Assembly: GCA_019456225.1 (NCBI GenBank)
Contig: VRUI01000007.1
Coordinates: 1 to 64,000, forward strand
From: Planctomycetota bacterium
GTDB taxonomy: Bacteria; Planctomycetota; Phycisphaerae; Sedimentisphaerales; Anaerohalosphaeraceae
Length of the DNA: 64,000 bases
Reading direction: 5' to 3'
This document shows, piece by piece, positions 2,410 to 62,622 of this stretch (positions within the stretch are counted from its first letter, which is position 1; each line of letters begins with the position of its first letter). The translations under genes were made by a program, and so were the position numbers. The notes under the pieces were generated by a model, which was not told the origin of the DNA, did not search any database, and was given only the letters and a program-made list of their open reading frames with translations.

Positions 2410-4623
2410 GTGAATTTACAAGATATGACCAAGACATTTGTTTGCATAATGATAGTTGGGCTTATGTCACAAGCGTCTTTAGTCTTTGCCTCTGGTAAAG
2501 GCCAGACTATTTCTGGTGGAGGTAATACCCCTTCAAAGGTTACGCAGGCTAATGTCAAATTGGTGTCTATATTCAACAATGCCAAGCCAGATGATTTTCA
2601 GATGATGACTTTTGCTAATATCAACAAAGATTGGTACCAGGCTAAGGTCACTCAGAACAAAGGTATGTTCAACCCAGTTTTCCTGGCGTTTGAGTATACA
2701 AGTACTTCTGACGTAGAAGATGATTATCAGCCGTTGACGTTTCCAAGTCTTCTTTCATTTAAGTTTGATTTCGTTCCAGATAATTACAGTGCGAGGCATC
2801 CGGCTTTTATTTTCAGGCGAGAACCTGTTTGGAAGATTATGCCGGAGGAAACTGAAAAGATATCCAAGTATATTACAGAATGGCATGCAACTCATGCTTT
2901 TGGCGGTAAAGTCATCTATACTCAGGAAGGTTATTCAGGGCAGTTGTTAGTATGGGATAAGGATGGTAATGAGGTTTTGAAACAGAATTATAAAAAGGCT
3001 TGTCCTTATTTTACTCTCATGGGTAAAATGGTTCGCAGTTGGATGGAATACAGGAAGCAGGAAGTTTCCGAAGAGCTTTATAAAGAGTTGACCCTGCCGA
3101 TGACTGATGATATGGAATGTGTCCGTATGTATGGCAAATCCTATGATGTCGAGTGGCGTTCAGAGGATGAATGGCAGATTTATGAAAGCATTCTGGCTAA
3201 GGATCCGAATTTTGCTGAGGTTCGTTTCTGGTACGCAAACCAGAAAGCATGGGAAACCGGTTTACATGATAAGCTTCGAATTGAAAAAGGCAGGGCCTTG
3301 AAAGGTCATCTTGTAATACCTGCGTTATGGGAATTTGGTCAAAAAAAATGCCTCGACCCGAGCATATTAAAAGCTTTTGACAAAGCACTTTCGCGAGCAG
3401 AATTAATTTGCCCAAATCATAGCACGGTGTTGTCGGTAAAAATCGATACTGATGGTGACAAGATGACGATCAAAGAACTGGACAGGTATTTGAATATCGC
3501 CGAAAAGACTCCGTGTAGTTACCAACTGATCAAAAATCTTGCGGTGCAATATCGAAAAAGAGGCTGTTATGAAAAATCGTTGCCGTTGTTTATTTCCGCA
3601 ATTAATTCCGGGTTCTTGAAAGGTGTTGGTTCTTTCGATTGGGAGTGGAGTATCTTAGCCGAGGATTTTTATGATCTTGGTTATATTGACGAGTCAATAT
3701 TTTGTGCTTTTAATTCACTTGTCGATTGTTCTGAACGTAGAAAGCGTTATTTGAACAGGACATTAGGCAAGGCTTATTGGGAGAAAAAACAGTATCAACG
3801 AGCAATTTCTGCATTTAAAAGAAATGTCGACAACTGGCCATACGATCTTTTCTATGTTTATCTCTGTGCTTACGAATCCGGTGACTTATCCTTACTGAAA
3901 GGGCTTGAAAAAAACGTTTTAAAAAAGGAGAAGATCAGGTTTATGCTTTCTTCAAGAGAATTTCTTGCAAAAGGTGACTTTAAGGTATCTTTGATAAATC
4001 TTAATCGGATGTCTGTGAAAGGTGCAAGCCCTAAGACCAACGATTTCTGTCGGCTTCATAAAAATATAATAGCTTCGGATATTCATATTTTAGCAGGTGA
4101 CATTAAAACCGCCAAAAAGCATGCGATATATGCTTTCCAAGCTTGTCCGAGAAGCAGACATGTTGCATATCTTCTGGAGACGTGTGCTAAAGACGACTTG
4201 ATTTCACTGGCTCGTTATGCAAAGGTTGGACAGTTCATCTGTAAAAAAGATCTGATCTGGAATGCGATGAATAGTCGTACAAGTAAGCACCTCGCCGCGG
4301 AAACTAAAGATGATGTCATGAAATTATTTAATGAAGCCCAAAAAAAACTTGCCGGGCTTTCTTCGAAGGATCAGAATGATTTCTGGCGAACATTTTTCCC
4401 TTTCGAAATTGAGTACATTACGTTGTATCTTCTTAATACTGATGATAAGGCTATCCGTGATGAAGTATTGCATTTCTATTTAAAATATTGCTCTGCAACT
4501 CGCGGAAATTCTAATTGGCAGGAAATGCACTTAAGATCGTTCTTCTTTCAGTTATTGACTTTAATACCTGAAGAAGAAGGGGATTTATGGAAAGATCAAT
4601 TGGTTTTTTTCAATAAACGTTAG
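2410..4623 (+). CDS. Large exported protein with TPR-like helical repeats, function unknown
   Basis: 737 residues from a GTG at 2410, preferred to the ATG at 2398 because GGAG (2400-2403) lies 6 nt upstream. A signal peptide is evident (TFVCIMIVGLMSQASLVFAS). The first third looks globular (a FAFEYTS-like beta region, then HATHAFGGKVIYTQEG). From about residue 270 there are helical pairs of TPR type: WQIYESILAKDPNFAEVRFW, then YEKSLPLFISAINSGFLKG and YQRAISAFKRNVDNWP. Known: TPR arrays bind protein partners. Inferred: a periplasmic scaffold or assembly protein. Lower GC and different codon use than the enzymes nearby hint at a fast-evolving or acquired gene. It probably shares a transcript with the small exported gene upstream. 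Confidence 0.65.
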   Translation: MNLQDMTKTFVCIMIVGLMSQASLVFASGKGQTISGGGNTPSKVTQANVKLVSIFNNAKPDDFQMMTFANINKDWYQAKVTQNKGMFNPVFLAFEYTSTSDVEDDYQPLTFPSLLSFKFDFVPDNYSARHPAFIFRREPVWKIMPEETEKISKYITEWHATHAFGGKVIYTQEGYSGQLLVWDKDGNEVLKQNYKKACPYFTLMGKMVRSWMEYRKQEVSEELYKELTLPMTDDMECVRMYGKSYDVEWRSEDEWQIYESILAKDPNFAEVRFWYANQKAWETGLHDKLRIEKGRALKGHLVIPALWEFGQKKCLDPSILKAFDKALSRAELICPNHSTVLSVKIDTDGDKMTIKELDRYLNIAEKTPCSYQLIKNLAVQYRKRGCYEKSLPLFISAINSGFLKGVGSFDWEWSILAEDFYDLGYIDESIFCAFNSLVDCSERRKRYLNRTLGKAYWEKKQYQRAISAFKRNVDNWPYDLFYVYLCAYESGDLSLLKGLEKNVLKKEKIRFMLSSREFLAKGDFKVSLINLNRMSVKGASPKTNDFCRLHKNIIASDIHILAGDIKTAKKHAIYAFQACPRSRHVAYLLETCAKDDLISLARYAKVGQFICKKDLIWNAMNSRTSKHLAAETKDDVMKLFNEAQKKLAGLSSKDQNDFWRTFFPFEIEYITLYLLNTDDKAIRDEVLHFYLKYCSATRGNSNWQEMHLRSFFFQLLTLIPEEEGDLWKDQLVFFNKR

Positions 4624-4707
4624 TCAATGTAAGGCCCAAACGCTTTTGGTTGTCTTAATTGTTATAGTTGGAGTTTTGCCTCAAGTGGATAGCCATGTTA
4701 ACTAAAG

Positions 4708-4873
4708 GCTCCGGGAGCCTTTTCCGAGGATTTGGGTAATTTAGCTTGGCGGGACGGTAAATGGGAATTCAAAAGCATCGACGCTGGAACATGCTATGGG
4801 TGATGATGATCTTGAGAGTATTCGGGATTTGGAATGGCTTAAGGGGATTAAGTGGGGGAGTGGGAAAAGTTAG
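4708..4873 (+). pseudogene. Possible gene relic
   Basis: Two adjacent frames look coding: one reads NLAWRDGKWEFKSIDAG and then meets a stop near 4801; a second continues HAMGDDDLESIRDLEWLKGI to a TAG at 4871-4873. Together they resemble the C-terminal end of one protein split by a frameshift. No start codon or family can be assigned. Low confidence; it could be chance in a 500-bp gap. Confidence 0.25.
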
Positions 4874-11545: not shown

Positions 11546-12676
11546 TCAGTTTTCCGGGGTGTCTTGCGGCGCTGGTTTGTTTGCTTCTTCGAGGGCAGCT
11601 TTTTCTATATCTTCCTCTGTCGCCAGTTTTGGCAGCTTGATGCAATTATTTGATTTGAACTGCAGAAGCCTTGGCGTAAGATTTTCTGGAACATTAAATG
11701 CCAGATCTATCTTTGCGATTTGATCCTTGATAACTTTTCGATCGAATTCAATGACCTCAGTGAGTGGTACATCCTTTTTGACGGGCTGACCTTTTATGAG
11801 ATATGTTTCCGGATATAATACCCTAATGTTATCTCCTGTGAGCTCGGCCTGGTCCTTAGGTCCGCATAAAAGTCTTACCTGGGCGAGAGTGAAAGAGAGC
11901 CTATTATCCTTGTTCTTAGCACCTCCTTCTTTGACTTTCTTGTTACTGATGGTAAGCTCTATGACCGTACGGATATCTCCGCCGGGCAATTCCCTTTTGC
12001 GAACTCCAAGTTTATTGACGGACACGGCATCCTTTGCAGCTACTGTTATAACGCCATCCTTTGCCGCATAACGGTTCAGGTGTATCTGGTCGAGGAAGTC
12101 TGCGTGGACTACATCGAACCTATTGCCGGATGCCAAAGCACCCTTTGCGATAATATTATAAAAGCCCACGACAAAACCATCAGCAGGTATCAAAGGTGAT
12201 GAAGAGTTTGACTTACTGGCAGCATTTTCATAACGTTTTACGGATTGATAGTTTTGCAAACGGGTCGTCTCGTTAATGCGTGCGTATGGGATTGAACTGC
12301 GTAAAGGAGCAAGTCCCAGTGCAATGGAGAGATTGCCTGAAATGATGAATCCCGATAAAACCCCGCAAACGATAGCCGAAGCAATTTTAGCAGGTTTTCC
12401 AAAATCGATGTTTGCTCCTACAACAAAACCGACGAGAGTTTCTGATATGGCCCAGATAACAGCAAAAATGAAAATGAAACAGGCAGTCTGAGCCCATTGG
12501 ACGAGAAATCCGGACGATATTAGAAAGCTCGCCAAGAGTTCATAAAAGCTTAATGAGACAATAGAGCCGATGATCGCGGTCATGAGGGTCACAAATGATT
12601 TCATAGGAGAATACTTCAGGTAGAGACGTGATGTTATTCCAATAATAATTATAATTGTATAAATTGTAGATACCAT
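11546..12676 (-). CDS. CvpA-like membrane protein with a long soluble tail
   Basis: 376 residues. Four hydrophobic helices lie in the first 130 residues (TIYTIIIIIGITSRLYL; FVTLMTAIIGSIVSLSFY; TACFIFIFAVIWAISETLVG; IASAIVCGVLSGFIISGN), a CvpA-family layout, followed by about 240 soluble residues rich in beta strands and an acidic, Pro-rich end. CvpA proteins are usually about 160 residues, so the tail is an addition. It is the last gene of an operon with pilT and the pilB-like gene (43 bp between genes). Known: CvpA is linked to envelope stress and colicin V production in E. coli. The context suggests a role in the pilus or envelope here (inference). Confidence 0.6.
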   Translation of the reverse strand: MVSTIYTIIIIIGITSRLYLKYSPMKSFVTLMTAIIGSIVSLSFYELLASFLISSGFLVQWAQTACFIFIFAVIWAISETLVGFVVGANIDFGKPAKIASAIVCGVLSGFIISGNLSIALGLAPLRSSIPYARINETTRLQNYQSVKRYENAASKSNSSSPLIPADGFVVGFYNIIAKGALASGNRFDVVHADFLDQIHLNRYAAKDGVITVAAKDAVSVNKLGVRKRELPGGDIRTVIELTISNKKVKEGGAKNKDNRLSFTLAQVRLLCGPKDQAELTGDNIRVLYPETYLIKGQPVKKDVPLTEVIEFDRKVIKDQIAKIDLAFNVPENLTPRLLQFKSNNCIKLPKLATEEDIEKAALEEANKPAPQDTPEN

Positions 12677-12719: not shown

Positions 12720-14423
12720 TTACTGCTTTGGTTTCGGTTTGGCTTTGGCTTCGGCTTTTGCTTTGGCTTTGGCTTTGGCTTTTGGTCTGTTGCCTAAGGT
12801 AAGCTCCTTGATGACTTCGTTGATCGAAGTTTCGCCTACCAGTACCTTCATAAGCGCCCTGTCCTGAATACCTACGACTTTAGACTTTGCAAATGCCATC
12901 GCGATATCCTGCATTGTTTTTGCAGCCTTAAGCTTTATTCGAAGATCGTCGTCAACTATGATCGTTTCATATACTCCTGTTCTTCCAAAGTATCCTGTTC
13001 CCTGACACTGCTCGCAGAGTAATGGTTTTCCATGTTTGTCATATTCTATATCACCTGTCCGGTAGAAACTTTTGACTTTTTCCGGTGGGATATTAAATTT
13101 TTTCAGTAGCGTCGGTCTTGGCTTGTAAGGCTGCCTGCAATCGCCGCAGAGCTTTCTGGAAAGCCTCTGATTGATTATCCCTATCAGTGAGTCGACGACC
13201 ATATCTTTGTCGCCGGTGAGTTGGATCCATTTTGCAAGTGCCTTTATCGTGCTTGTCGCCTGGTAATTAACATGTACGACCCTGTTTAGATTAGCCGCTG
13301 CATTTGTGGCGATCTTTGCAGCTTCTGCATCATCACAGTCGGCAATACCAATAATACCTGGGCCCATCCGTATGATAGACTGAAGCTGCTCAGAGTAGGA
13401 ACCGGTGCTTGAGTCGTTTAGGGAATACCGATTCTGCGTAATATTGTCCAAGGTAGCGGTAATGTCCTTTTCATAAGTGTTTATGTCATTCATGAACGGG
13501 TCATGGTTTTTTATCATTGCATAAAAAGTCGTGCTTACACCTTCTTTTGCCGGTCCGGTTATTAGAAACAGGCCGGAGGTTCTATCGCGTACTGTTTTTA
13601 AAGCTTCTGCCTGGTCGTCATCCATACCGAGGTCGTCAATTTTCATTATCGCCTTATCTTCGAACCTTTTGAAGAGGGCCTGCTCACCTGCGGTAGAGCC
13701 TGCGGTTGTCAATTCCCATGCGACTTTTTCCCCGTCGATAACGACATACATTTTTCCAGTCTGCGGTTTTCTCTTCTCCTTGGTGTCAAGGTCGGCTATC
13801 TGCTTGACGAGATAGATAAACTGCTCCATGTCTTCGCGTTCTTTTGGAGGCTGCTTAACCGGTACGCCGTCTATTATGTAAGAGATCGCGTATTCCTGCT
13901 GGGCAGGAAGAAAAGCTATCTCGCTTACCCTTCTCCATGCGGCATCTTCGAATACTTCACAAACATCATGGTAAGCATAAGCTTCGTAAGTTTTTGGCTG
14001 GGGCAACGGCACTTCGTTTCCGTTTGCTGTAACAAACGAAATGCCCATAGTTAACTTGTCAGTTTTTTTGTTATTTTTCGTGAACAACCCCATAATGTGC
14101 TGCGGGGTCATAACTTTTTCGAACTCGGCGACAAGTAAGTTTCTGTGCATGACATATGCAAGCGAAATGGCACCGACGGAGATTATAAATATGAGCATAC
14201 CGATCAGAAAAAAAGGTGCCACGAGCCAGATCAGCAGAGATACTCCACCTGAAACGGCGATGGATGCGGTCCAGTGCTTTGACTTTGAACGCACCGCCTG
14301 AGTGTCGGTATGCGCCCAGTTGACAAGTGGAAACCATACAATTAAAAAAAATAAATAAACTGCTAGTTTGATCGGTGAAACATAGATACCGTAACTGAGG
14401 GCAGCCGATAATATAACTGGCAT
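12720..14423 (-). CDS. Membrane-anchored GspE/PilB-like protein with degenerate ATP site
   Basis: 567 residues. Membrane helices at about 16-36 and 53-92, then an N2-like domain and the C-terminal GspE fold. The Walker A position reads GPAKEGVSTT (290-299) where working enzymes have GPTGSGKTTT: the Lys is Val. The Walker B region reads GPGIIGIADCDDAEAA (354-369) in place of DPDVILVGEIRDFETA, and the Asp and His boxes are also altered. The zinc tetracysteine is intact (CGDC 426-429, CEQC 470-473) with the GYFGRTGVYE that follows. The last 20 residues are Lys/Ala repeats. Known family role: ATP-driven pilus assembly or secretion. Inferred: a non-hydrolysing subunit that pairs with PilT or PilB at the membrane. 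It lies 28 bp after pilT in the same operon. Confidence 0.85.
   Translation of the reverse strand: MPVILSAALSYGIYVSPIKLAVYLFFLIVWFPLVNWAHTDTQAVRSKSKHWTASIAVSGGVSLLIWLVAPFFLIGMLIFIISVGAISLAYVMHRNLLVAEFEKVMTPQHIMGLFTKNNKKTDKLTMGISFVTANGNEVPLPQPKTYEAYAYHDVCEVFEDAAWRRVSEIAFLPAQQEYAISYIIDGVPVKQPPKEREDMEQFIYLVKQIADLDTKEKRKPQTGKMYVVIDGEKVAWELTTAGSTAGEQALFKRFEDKAIMKIDDLGMDDDQAEALKTVRDRTSGLFLITGPAKEGVSTTFYAMIKNHDPFMNDINTYEKDITATLDNITQNRYSLNDSSTGSYSEQLQSIIRMGPGIIGIADCDDAEAAKIATNAAANLNRVVHVNYQATSTIKALAKWIQLTGDKDMVVDSLIGIINQRLSRKLCGDCRQPYKPRPTLLKKFNIPPEKVKSFYRTGDIEYDKHGKPLLCEQCQGTGYFGRTGVYETIIVDDDLRIKLKAAKTMQDIAMAFAKSKVVGIQDRALMKVLVGETSINEVIKELTLGNRPKAKAKAKAKAEAKAKPKPKQ
12725..12786. repeat. Hexamer repeat coding for a Lys/Ala tail
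   Basis: Repeated ggcttt units, with tcggct variants, at the 3' end of the pilB-like gene encode a KAKAKAEAKAKPKPKQ-type tail. Repeat slippage could change the tail length. Confidence 0.7.
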
Positions 14424-14451: not shown

Positions 14452-15588
14452 TTACAACAGGCCGCCTGACGACGCCCGTACGCCTTTTAGCGCCATCTTC
14501 AATTCTTCTACGTTAGGTGCACAACGCATTCCTTCTTCGAGGCTGATCATTTCTCTTCTGATGAGGTCCTCAAGAGAGTCTGTAAAGTCCTGCATGCCTT
14601 CGCCTTTTCCGCCTCTTATGGCCGTTGGTATGTCTGCTTCGCGTTCTTCGGCGATGAGCTTTTTGACGATTGGGTTTGCCAGGAGAACTTCGACAGCAGG
14701 CACTCGCTTAGCATCGGGCTTTAGGCCCTTTAGGAGTTGCTGTGAGATTACAGCCTTGATGGTCAGCGAGAACGTCGCCCTTGCAAGATCCCGCTCTTCC
14801 TGCGGGAAGAGGTCGAGGATACGCTGGATAGTCTGTGCGGCACTGGCGGCGTGAAGTGTTCCGAATACGAGGTGGCCTGTTTCGGCAGCCCGCATCGCAG
14901 CGATAAGTGTTTCCTGGTCACGCATTTCACCAATGAGTACGATGTCGGGGTCCTGACGCATAAGCCCTCGAAGTGCGTCTTCGTAGTTGGCACAGTCGAT
15001 ACCGATCTCACGCTGTGAGACTATGCACTTGCGGTCCATGTGAAGATACTCGATAGGGTCCTCGATAGTTACGATATGGCTTGATCGATGCCTGTTGACG
15101 TAGTCGATCATCGATGCGATAGTCGTACTCTTTCCACATCCGGTCGGGCCGGTAACGAGGACAAGGCCATCGTGGGCAGTGTCTGCGATTTCCTGGACGA
15201 TGGGCGGAAGATTGAGCGTTTCGAATGCAGGGATGTTTCCGGTAATGTGACGTGCGACGAGACTGATCGAACCTCGCTGACGGAAAACGTTTACCCTGAA
15301 ACGGTCCATGCGGCTGAGCGAATGAGCAAAGTCAAAAGATCCGTGTTCGAGGAAATATTCTTTCTGCTTTCCGGTGAGTATCTCGAAGACGAGATCTTCC
15401 ATGTTCTGTTCGGTAATGACAGGAGCTTTGGTGTTTTTTAGGCCGCCGTTAACTCGTATCCTGGGGGCGAGGCCTACCTTTAAATGCAAGTCGCTGGCTC
15501 CGGCTTTTATCATGCCGATAAGAAGTTTGTCGATCTCCGCCTTCTTCGCCGAATACGTATGATCGTCTATTGGTTGTCCCTTGCTCAT
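14452..15588 (-). CDS. pilT: PilT-type retraction ATPase
   Basis: 378 residues, a usual PilT length. GPTGCGKSTT (Walker A, about 146-155), EDPIEYLH (Asp box), RQDPDIVLIGEMRD (Walker B) and the PilT signature AAETGHLVFGTLHA are all intact; ASDLHL near residue 31 is the expected N-terminal motif. PilT is a cytoplasmic hexamer that depolymerises type IV pili. It is the first gene of an operon with the degenerate pilB-like and cvpA-like genes. A Thr-to-Cys or Ser change in Walker A (GCGK) is tolerated in this family. The pilus core genes lie 36-47 kb away at 51.9-62.6 kb. Confidence 0.93.
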   Translation of the reverse strand: MSKGQPIDDHTYSAKKAEIDKLLIGMIKAGASDLHLKVGLAPRIRVNGGLKNTKAPVITEQNMEDLVFEILTGKQKEYFLEHGSFDFAHSLSRMDRFRVNVFRQRGSISLVARHITGNIPAFETLNLPPIVQEIADTAHDGLVLVTGPTGCGKSTTIASMIDYVNRHRSSHIVTIEDPIEYLHMDRKCIVSQREIGIDCANYEDALRGLMRQDPDIVLIGEMRDQETLIAAMRAAETGHLVFGTLHAASAAQTIQRILDLFPQEERDLARATFSLTIKAVISQQLLKGLKPDAKRVPAVEVLLANPIVKKLIAEEREADIPTAIRGGKGEGMQDFTDSLEDLIRREMISLEEGMRCAPNVEELKMALKGVRASSGGLL

Positions 15589-59716: not shown

Positions 59717-60913
59717 CTATTTTATATGTCCCATATAATCGAACATAGGCAGGTAAACTCCGAGCAGTATCATTCCTACTACCAATCCCAGTACGACCGA
59801 TAAGATCGGTTCGATTTTAATTAGTAAAGCGCTGATCGCCCTTTCGATCTTTACATCGAGAAAGTCTACGCCTTTTTCGAGCATCTCCGGAAGGACGCCT
59901 GCTTCTTCTCCGGCACTGGCAAGCTGTTGGACCATAGGCGGAATAATGGTACTTTCTGACAGAAGCTCTGAAAGAGAACTTCCGGTCATTAGCCTATCCT
60001 GAATATCATTCGAATAATTCCTCATTACGCAGTTATTGGCGACCTGCTTGGAAAGCTCGATGGCTTCGACGACACCGATACCCGAAGAGAGCATCATCGC
60101 CAGGGTCCGAATAAAACGGCTTGCAACGATCATTCGGTTAAGCGGTCCGAAGACCGGAATGTTTAGTTTTATAGAGTCGATCTTATCCCTTACCGAAGGT
60201 ACGCCATATAAATATCGGACGCCGAATACTATCCCTACTATCGACGGTACTATGACCCCCCAGTAATTTCTTACCGCTTCGCTGACAAAAATAAGCACAA
60301 GGGTCGGCCACGGCAGAACTATATGAAGCTGGTTGTATAATTTCTGAAAGACCGGGATGACAAATATCACCAGTGCTGTCACGATCAGAAAACACATTAT
60401 CACGACGGTTATCGGGTATGCGAATGCCGCCTTGATCTTGCTCCTCAAATCTGCTTGTTTTTCGAGGTATTCGGCGGTCATCTGGAGAGTCTCGTTTAAT
60501 TTTCCGCCGGTTTCGCCGGCTTCGAGCATTCCCAGGAAGAAATCCGAGAAGACTTCCCTGTGTATTCCAAAGGCCTCCCTGAGCGACATTCCGGCTTCGA
60601 CCTGTATTCTCACATCGCCGATCACCGCTTTGAACGTAGGATTATCGCTTTGTGACTCGAAGGTTTCCAGACATCTTATTATCGAAAGTCCAGCGTTGTA
60701 CATTCCTGCAAACTCATAAGTAAAAGCAACGATCTCACTTTGTTTGATCCTGTTTTTTTTCAAAGCCTTTTGATTTTCGCACTTTGCTTTCAGCAGTTTA
60801 TAGCCCATTTTCTTAAGCTCACTGCGGAGTGCTTTTATGCTCTCGATATCGGTGTATATTCCTGTCTGAATGTTTCCGCCGGTATCTTTTGCGGTATACT
60901 CGAAGGTTGACAT
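59717..60913 (-). CDS. GspF/PilC inner-membrane platform protein
   Basis: 398 residues from the second ATG (60913), with GAGGAG 6 nt before. Two T2SSF domains (about 70-190 and 270-395), helices at the end of each (ITVVIMCFLIVTALVIFVIP; LSVVLGLVVGMILLGVYLP). FFLGMLEAGETGGKLNETL and QQLASAGEEAGVLPEML are the signature repeats. Holds the ATPase and pulls or adds pilin. Overlaps the stop of the ATPase gene. Confidence 0.93.
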   Translation of the reverse strand: MSTFEYTAKDTGGNIQTGIYTDIESIKALRSELKKMGYKLLKAKCENQKALKKNRIKQSEIVAFTYEFAGMYNAGLSIIRCLETFESQSDNPTFKAVIGDVRIQVEAGMSLREAFGIHREVFSDFFLGMLEAGETGGKLNETLQMTAEYLEKQADLRSKIKAAFAYPITVVIMCFLIVTALVIFVIPVFQKLYNQLHIVLPWPTLVLIFVSEAVRNYWGVIVPSIVGIVFGVRYLYGVPSVRDKIDSIKLNIPVFGPLNRMIVASRFIRTLAMMLSSGIGVVEAIELSKQVANNCVMRNYSNDIQDRLMTGSSLSELLSESTIIPPMVQQLASAGEEAGVLPEMLEKGVDFLDVKIERAISALLIKIEPILSVVLGLVVGMILLGVYLPMFDYMGHIK

Positions 60914-62622
60914 CATTGACTCCTCATATCGACTACCCGAAGTAGTTCGTCAAGCGATGTGATTCCATTGAACGCCTGTCGCAGACCTTCGAGCCTAAGC
61001 GTATTCATACCCTGCTGCATCGCTGTTGCCAGTATCTGGTCATCAGAAGCGCCTTTTACAATAAGTGACCTGATTTCCGGCGTGACATTTAGTATTTCAT
61101 ACACGCCCTGCCGCCCCATGTATCCGAGGTCCCTGCATTTACTGCAGCCATCGCTCTTATAGAGAGTAATGCCGCTTTGACGTTCCTGCGGTGTGAAGTT
61201 TTCCAGTTCCTCTTCTGAGGGAGTATACGAACTTTTGCAGTTGGGGCAGATCTTTCTGACAAGTCTCTGGGCAACGGCTCCGAGCAGCGACGAGGCTACG
61301 TGGAAAGCCGGTATACCGAGGCTTACAAGCCTGGATATGGTACCTACGGCATCGTTTGTGTGCAGTGTGCTTAGTACGAGATGGCCGGTAAGAGCGGCGC
61401 TTACCGCTATTTCGGCAGTCTCGAAGTCGCGTATTTCACCTACAAGTATAACGTCGGGATCCTGTCTCAATATACTTTTAAGCCCGGACGCGAAGGTCAT
61501 GCCTATCGTCGGTTTCACCTGTATCTGCGTAATACCATTAAGCCGATATTCGACGGGATCTTCGATGGTAACGATGTTTCTGTCGACAGTATTAAGTGCC
61601 TGGATCATCGAATAGAGTGTGGTGGTTTTTCCGCTTCCGGTCGGTCCTGTCAAAAGCACCATGCCGTAGGGATTTGAGATAAGCGAGCTTAATCGTTTAT
61701 AACTTTCATCGGAACCGGCGATTTGTTCCATCCCGACAAGACCGGAGGTGGTGTCGAGAATCCTTAAAACAATCTTTTCACCGCCTGTTGCCGGAAGCGT
61801 AGAAACTCGCAAGTCGTATTCCTTGCCGTTGTGCTCAAAACAAATATGCCCGTCCTGCGGGACGCGGCGTTCGGAGATGTCTATCTCGGAGAGAATTTTA
61901 ATATGCGAAATAACTTCCTGATGAGCAGAGGAAGGTATGCTTAGAGCATCAATCAGGATTCCGTCAACGCGGTATCTTACCCGCATCTCGGGTTCGTGGG
62001 GCTCTATATGTATATCACTGCTGCGGGAGTCAATTGCTCCGGTGATTATCGAATCTACCAGGCGAACGATCGGGGCATCTGCTGTTTTTGCCGAATGTAC
62101 TTTTTTGATTTTGATATCTTCGCCGGCACTGTCTTTCAGACGCATCGCAACAATGTCCTGCTTTGTGACGCTTTCTACGTTGAAGTGGAAAGCGGCGGCA
62201 TGCTTAATGGCCTCGACGGTAGCTGCAAGGGGCACTACCTTATAGCCGGTTTTCATGGCAATTGCATCCCTTACAGAAAGGTTCATCGGCGAACTCATCG
62301 CCACGAAAAGGGTGTCCTTTTCGATACGGACAGGTATAAGGTTGTGCTGACGAGCCATATCGAAAGGAATCAGGCGAACGGCCATCTGGTCTATCATATC
62401 GGACGTAAGATCGATAAACTCGATGTCATTGCTAATCGCGGTGACCCTTGTAAGCTGCTGCTGGTCGATGAGATCGCGGTTTTTCAGAACGCTTATCAGG
62501 CTTCTGCCTGAAGCATCACACGAGTCTACAAGCTCACTAAGCTCGGTTTCTTCAAGAACATTCTCTTTTAGAAGATACGTAATTACGGATTCATCACTTG
62601 CCATTAGATTTTCCAAGCGCAC
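60913..62622 (-). CDS. GspE/PilB assembly ATPase
   Basis: 569 residues from a GTG at 62622; the ATG at 62604 (GGA upstream) is the other candidate. N-terminal MshEN-like domain, then GTGSGK-type Walker A (GPTGSGKTTTLYS), EDPVEYRLNGITQIQV, RQDPDVILVGEIRDFETAEI (Walker B) and TGHLVLSTLHTNDA, plus the zinc pair CPNC and CSKC. All catalytic residues are present, unlike the paralogue at 12720-14423. Drives pilus extension or secretion. First gene of the cluster; its leader holds the composite repeat. Confidence 0.95.
   Translation of the reverse strand: MRLENLMASDESVITYLLKENVLEETELSELVDSCDASGRSLISVLKNRDLIDQQQLTRVTAISNDIEFIDLTSDMIDQMAVRLIPFDMARQHNLIPVRIEKDTLFVAMSSPMNLSVRDAIAMKTGYKVVPLAATVEAIKHAAAFHFNVESVTKQDIVAMRLKDSAGEDIKIKKVHSAKTADAPIVRLVDSIITGAIDSRSSDIHIEPHEPEMRVRYRVDGILIDALSIPSSAHQEVISHIKILSEIDISERRVPQDGHICFEHNGKEYDLRVSTLPATGGEKIVLRILDTTSGLVGMEQIAGSDESYKRLSSLISNPYGMVLLTGPTGSGKTTTLYSMIQALNTVDRNIVTIEDPVEYRLNGITQIQVKPTIGMTFASGLKSILRQDPDVILVGEIRDFETAEIAVSAALTGHLVLSTLHTNDAVGTISRLVSLGIPAFHVASSLLGAVAQRLVRKICPNCKSSYTPSEEELENFTPQERQSGITLYKSDGCSKCRDLGYMGRQGVYEILNVTPEIRSLIVKGASDDQILATAMQQGMNTLRLEGLRQAFNGITSLDELLRVVDMRSQ

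Follow-up and report, generated by a model that had tools for sequence, protein, structure and literature searches.

A conserved, membrane-anchored PilB-like protein with a degenerate ATP site, probably a structural partner of PilT, encoded beside a CvpA-family gene in Phycisphaerae

The question raised by this locus is what a PilB-type protein can still do for the cell once the residues needed to hydrolyze ATP have gone. Secretion and pilus ATPases are usually viewed as engines; the window analyzed here, a stretch of 64,000 nucleotides from a bacterium of the phylum Planctomycetota, encodes a membrane-fixed member of this group that is apparently dead, yet is strongly selected across a whole class. 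We propose, with a probability of about 0.5, that the protein is a conserved inner-membrane pseudo-ATPase within a module of PilT, membrane PilB, and CvpA, where it probably acts as a docking platform or stator for PilT.

The product of positions 12720 to 14423 matched the Pfam T2SSE domain (PF00437) over residues 154 to 538 (E = 5.9e-47), and the solved structures in the PDB closest to it by sequence were those of PilF, PilB, and GspE. It missed the equivalog cutoffs for PilB and GspE, scoring 163 and 191 bits against the 676 and 630 required (NCBIfam TIGR02538 and TIGR02533). The AlphaFold models were weak (pLDDT of 61 and 54, from few input sequences), and the core fold alone was used; with a low-confidence predicted model as the query, the top Foldseek matches were PilF, PilB, and EpsE (E of 1e-30 to 1e-26). 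The features of the locus are as follows.

12720 to 14423, minus strand: membrane-anchored, predicted PilB/GspE-type pseudo-ATPase, 567 aa, ATG start (T2SSE match, class-wide orthologues, catalytic residues lost)
14181 to 14387, minus strand: two N-terminal hydrophobic segments, residues 13 to 31 and 63 to 81, where PilB would have its N1/MshEN domain (hydropathy scan)
13527 to 13556, minus strand: degenerate Walker A, GPAKEGVSTT, residues 290 to 299, Lys to Val at 296 (95-member class alignment)
13455 to 13472, minus strand: degenerate Asp box, residues 318 to 323, with Thr322 at the Mg-coordinating Glu (E357 of Geobacter PilB)
13335 to 13364, minus strand: degenerate Walker B region, GPGIIGIADC, residues 354 to 363, with Asp362 at the catalytic Glu (E395)
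13248 to 13292, minus strand: degenerate His box, residues 378 to 392, with Arg381 and Gln388 at H413 and H420
13005 to 13148, minus strand: zinc tetracysteine, Cys426, Cys429, Cys470, and Cys473, kept (at or below the 5th percentile of variability, 95 members)
14452 to 15588, minus strand: module PilT, 378 aa, catalytic motifs all intact (TIGR01420, 429 bits)
11546 to 12676, minus strand: CvpA-family membrane protein, 376 aa, with a long C-terminal extension (homologues match PF02674; downstream-protein profile)

The pilT gene ends 28 bases before the PilB-like gene, which is followed after 43 bases by the CvpA-like gene, and an intact PilB is encoded in the same window at 60913 to 62622; an earlier note on this DNA had described this arrangement. 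The C-terminal tail of the PilB-like protein (window positions 12723 to 12785) is of low complexity and rich in Lys, Ala, and Pro (KAKAKAKAEAKAKPKPKQ); no other stretch is so poorly conserved in the family.

Catalytic positions were numbered by aligning the window's intact PilB over its full length to Geobacter PilB (PDB 5tsg), and the roles of the residues, such as Mg binding by E357, catalysis by E395, and the trans-acting fingers R271 and R286, were taken from the study of that protein (PMC5424180). Since the Walker B acid is missing from PilT-like ATPases in any case (PMC5424180), the residues that matter are the Glu of the Asp box and the Glu after Walker B; in the window protein, these are T322 and D362. 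The arginine fingers, which were absent from the earlier note, correspond to E237 and K252. In 18 catalytic homologues, positions 296, 322, 362, 381/388, and 237/252 do not vary; when the core columns of 95 aligned class members are ranked by variability, the same positions fall between the 65th and the 90th percentile. Of these 95 proteins, 94 have no Walker A Lys and 78 no catalytic Glu (17 keep it), and nearly all have lost both arginine fingers, the His of the His box, and the Glu that binds Mg. Conversely, R218, G242, D308, E318, R423, and the four cysteines rank no higher than the 5th percentile of variability. R455 of Geobacter PilB, the tether of its apo interface, has a kept counterpart in R423; the residues that grip the nucleotide across the closed interface are lost.

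These results uphold the earlier picture of a membrane-anchored, PilB-like protein that keeps its zinc tetracysteine, fold, and length, but has a destroyed ATP site with a replaced Walker A Lys and altered Asp and His boxes. The Gly-Pro-Gly reported at Walker B is present in the window protein but is partly private to the host genome: Gly354 is order-wide (38 of 46 members), but Asp356 is retained in 36 of the 46. That the protein is a pseudo-enzyme is well supported, and it is predicted to be inactive as an ATPase. The donation of an arginine finger to an active neighbor, as by the alpha subunits of F1, was considered and rejected, because both fingers are lost. In family f10 (L128, L129, and L132), degeneration has gone one step further, with the loss of three of the four zinc cysteines.

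The P-loop is among the best-conserved stretches of the core (mean entropy of 1.09 in the order and 1.51 in the class); Gly295 is at 100% and Thr or Ser at 297 occurs in 94 of 95 proteins, and many order members have a Lys at 292 or 293. The conservation of Gly295 and Thr297, for which a purely structural role would account only loosely, would allow a ligand to be bound but not hydrolyzed. It can be envisioned that the pocket is a nucleotide or phosphate sensor, which binds nucleotide without hydrolyzing it and informs PilT or CvpA of the state of energy or of the pilus. We consider this explanation rather unlikely, since Lys296, the equivalent of the Mg-binding Glu at 322, the phosphate-binding arginine finger, and the His box are lost and variable, and the Lys at 292 or 293 is not fixed across the class. 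The same displaced lysine might instead serve a residual or rewired ATPase, a reading with which the Glu at the catalytic position in 17 of 95 members and the Walker A Lys in one would agree; however, only 4 of the 95 proteins combine two out of the three main catalytic residues that act in cis and the arginine fingers are lost as well, so this reading is very improbable. The single class member with a Walker A Lys (L032) still lacks other catalytic residues, so its Lys is probably a chance return, and among the close relatives there is none in which the site is intact.

Several substitutions at catalytic positions would also be expected of a pseudogene or of recent decay. The nearest named relatives of the window protein come from metagenome-assembled genomes of Sedimentisphaerales and Anaerohalosphaeraceae. 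Within the order Sedimentisphaerales, which is part of the class Phycisphaerae, 39 of 40 genomes encode an orthologue that extends through the N-terminal membrane part, with 33 to 57% identity. Across the class, 179 of 198 genomes gave a match at an E value of 1e-50 or below, and 4 of the rest gave one of 1e-46 to 1e-50 in a second search; near-full-length orthologues were thus found in at least 183 of the 198 class genomes searched. Locus L134 (10 bases) was left out. In the close degenerate pairs measured, dN/dS (NG86) was about 0.02 to 0.17 and mostly 0.03 to 0.10, with similar values for the neighboring pilT and none like that of a pseudogene. The low dN/dS and the class-wide conservation of an open frame with invariant columns rule out decay, to which we attach a negligible probability. 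Together with the variable catalytic columns, they agree with the suggestion in the earlier note that selection maintains the structure without catalysis.

The N terminus sets this family apart from other PilBs. There was no Pfam match to an N1/MshEN domain in the window protein, which has membrane segments there instead; by hydropathy, nearly all members of the family have one to three such segments, and the genome's canonical PilBs have none there, except for one segment in L005. Anchored proteins in which every catalytic motif is intact occur in other planctomycetes (families f49, f56, and f70). Since these intact proteins are already anchored, the membrane helices are older than the catalytic loss, and the idea that the helices were gained along with that loss has to be abandoned.

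In a core tree built with the catalytic columns omitted, the class proteins formed one clade (support of 100/99) adjoining the intact f49 proteins. With support of 91/69, f49 was joined by another degenerate group, f90/f99; its members L123, L125, and L127 are degenerate anchored PilBs encoded beside an intact PilT and a CvpA gene. This topology suggests that catalysis was lost twice, in the class and in f90/f99; a single loss is still plausible, with an AU P value of 0.476 for one clade uniting the two. The anchored family is likely to be monophyletic, a conclusion short of proof because the split from the canonical PilBs is weakly supported (71/76).

The order of pilT, degenerate pilB, and cvpA, the recurrence of which had been proposed as a check, does recur class-wide. 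In 80 of 92 class loci, pilT immediately precedes the degenerate gene, and in two more (L077 and L078) a PilB is interposed between them; for the intact anchored form (f49, f56, and f70), pilT is upstream in 5 of 11 loci. The module PilTs of the same loci retain their catalytic motifs almost without exception; thus, the catalytic loss is specific to the PilB-like gene. In family f49 and in parts of f9, f16, f21, f23, and f13, pilT is not adjacent, and a fixed partnership with PilT is therefore not proven. Module-type PilTs were told apart by comparing two profiles, since a PilT tree had very long branches and was dropped; one was encoded elsewhere in the genome in all nine f49 genomes searched and, clearly, in five class genomes that lack an adjacent pilT. 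In f13, a diverged, weak candidate was found in three of four genomes, and G067 was ambiguous. A dedicated PilT with intact catalytic motifs is thus encoded in almost every genome, adjacent or not.

The host genome also encodes approximately nine further PilB/GspE-type proteins, with 25 to 29% identity to the product of 12720 to 14423, and several more PilTs, so the membrane PilB-like protein is one specialized paralogue among many. A PilB-PilT-PilB-PilC cluster lies elsewhere in this genome (G000 contig C87, about 10.8 to 15.2 kb). The interposed genes of family f9 (L077, positions 3160 to 4872; L078, positions 3107 to 4855) encode PilB-type ATPases with intact motifs, with an N-terminal FHA domain detected by Pfam in L077. 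That an intact PilB directly precedes the degenerate one in f9 is what might be expected of a brake or poison subunit, which would join mixed rings with canonical PilB and slow or stop pilus extension, and the PilB-like core fold and the conserved ring-interface residue R423 would permit such mixing. Nevertheless, the membrane anchor, the low identity to PilBs encoded in the same genome, and the fact that the usual neighbor is PilT and not PilB make a brake improbable.

The most constant neighbor of the PilB-like gene is the CvpA-family gene (effectively 92 of 92 loci), ahead of pilT (82 of 92). The window CvpA-like protein had no Pfam match of its own; homologous downstream proteins in L077, L121, L126, and L127 passed the cutoff of PF02674 (Colicin_V), which supports the CvpA-like label. 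In 90 of 92 class loci, a profile made from the downstream proteins had its match immediately after the PilB-like gene, which the matches in the other two loci overlap. The match was also there in 10 of 11 intact anchored loci and in all three loci of f90/f99; among 4146 open reading frames, 122 of the 125 matches were in this position. The C-terminal extension is long in the class (giving a protein of up to 740 aa, in L077) and is beta-rich in a low-confidence model; the CvpA-like proteins of f49, f56, and f70 are only 185 to 231 aa. Since CvpA, not PilT, is the closest genomic partner, the link to pili is itself one that we infer. One explanation may be that this is a nonpilus envelope module, in which the PilB-like protein chiefly serves the CvpA-type protein as its cytosolic partner and PilT drives that system; no pilins, PilC, or secretins were found among the cluster-adjoining genes examined, and separate PilB, PilT, and PilC genes are present elsewhere in the genome. 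We regard this explanation as unlikely, since the retained PilB fold, the zinc region, and the module-dedicated PilT point to pilus-type machinery and a single PilC encoded elsewhere is able to serve several ATPases.

The dead PilB-like protein has, therefore, probably become a structural part rather than an engine: its ATP residues are lost, yet it is kept throughout the class, fixed in the membrane, in the company of CvpA and a working PilT. A physical complex and any link to pilus retraction are what we infer; a docking role would fit the loss of the cis and trans catalytic residues, the retained ring and zinc surfaces, and the intact PilT. We postulate that the N-terminal helical hairpin fixes a PilB/GspE-type subunit in the inner membrane and that this subunit, which would neither hydrolyze ATP nor offer an arginine finger to a neighbor, retains the PilB fold and its ring-forming surfaces. 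It would then dock the active PilT ring at the membrane, beside CvpA, as a platform or stator, with PilT carrying out all of the ATP hydrolysis. More tentatively, the dedicated PilT, the anchored PilB-type protein, and the CvpA-family protein may form an undescribed three-part inner-membrane machine, whose PilB-type member went from motor to stator class-wide, and perhaps independently in f90/f99, while it remains an active motor in sister lineages.

The presence of a dead class alongside catalytic sister lineages is a natural experiment that separates the parts of a PilB ring needed for structure from those needed for force, and the PilT of the module suggests that labor is divided, with one ring active and the scaffold dead. 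In addition, the universal pairing provides a handle on CvpA, a widespread membrane family whose function is poorly known. A partial literature search found neither a comparable degenerate PilB nor any account of PilB or PilT in Phycisphaerae or of a link between CvpA and PilT.

The protein resembles PilB and GspE (PF00437; TIGR02538 and TIGR02533) in its N2D and CTD core, its zinc tetracysteine, and its length; unlike them, it lacks a working ATP site, arginine fingers, and an N1/MshEN domain, and has a membrane hairpin instead. The CvpA/Colicin_V family (PF02674) supplies the downstream partner, which differs here in its long C-terminal extension and in being tied to a PilB-like gene; the literature searched did not describe such a tie. 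PilU is likewise a second motor-family protein that is often encoded with pilT, a PilT-dependent retraction ATPase that works only with PilT (PMC6762196); however, PilU, an ATPase in its own right, is a member of the PilT subfamily, whereas the window protein is PilB-type, predicted to be catalytically dead, and membrane bound. The anchored PilBs of f49, f56, and f70 are sister lineages in the core tree with the same anchor and the same downstream CvpA; the window protein differs from them in that their catalytic motifs are all intact.
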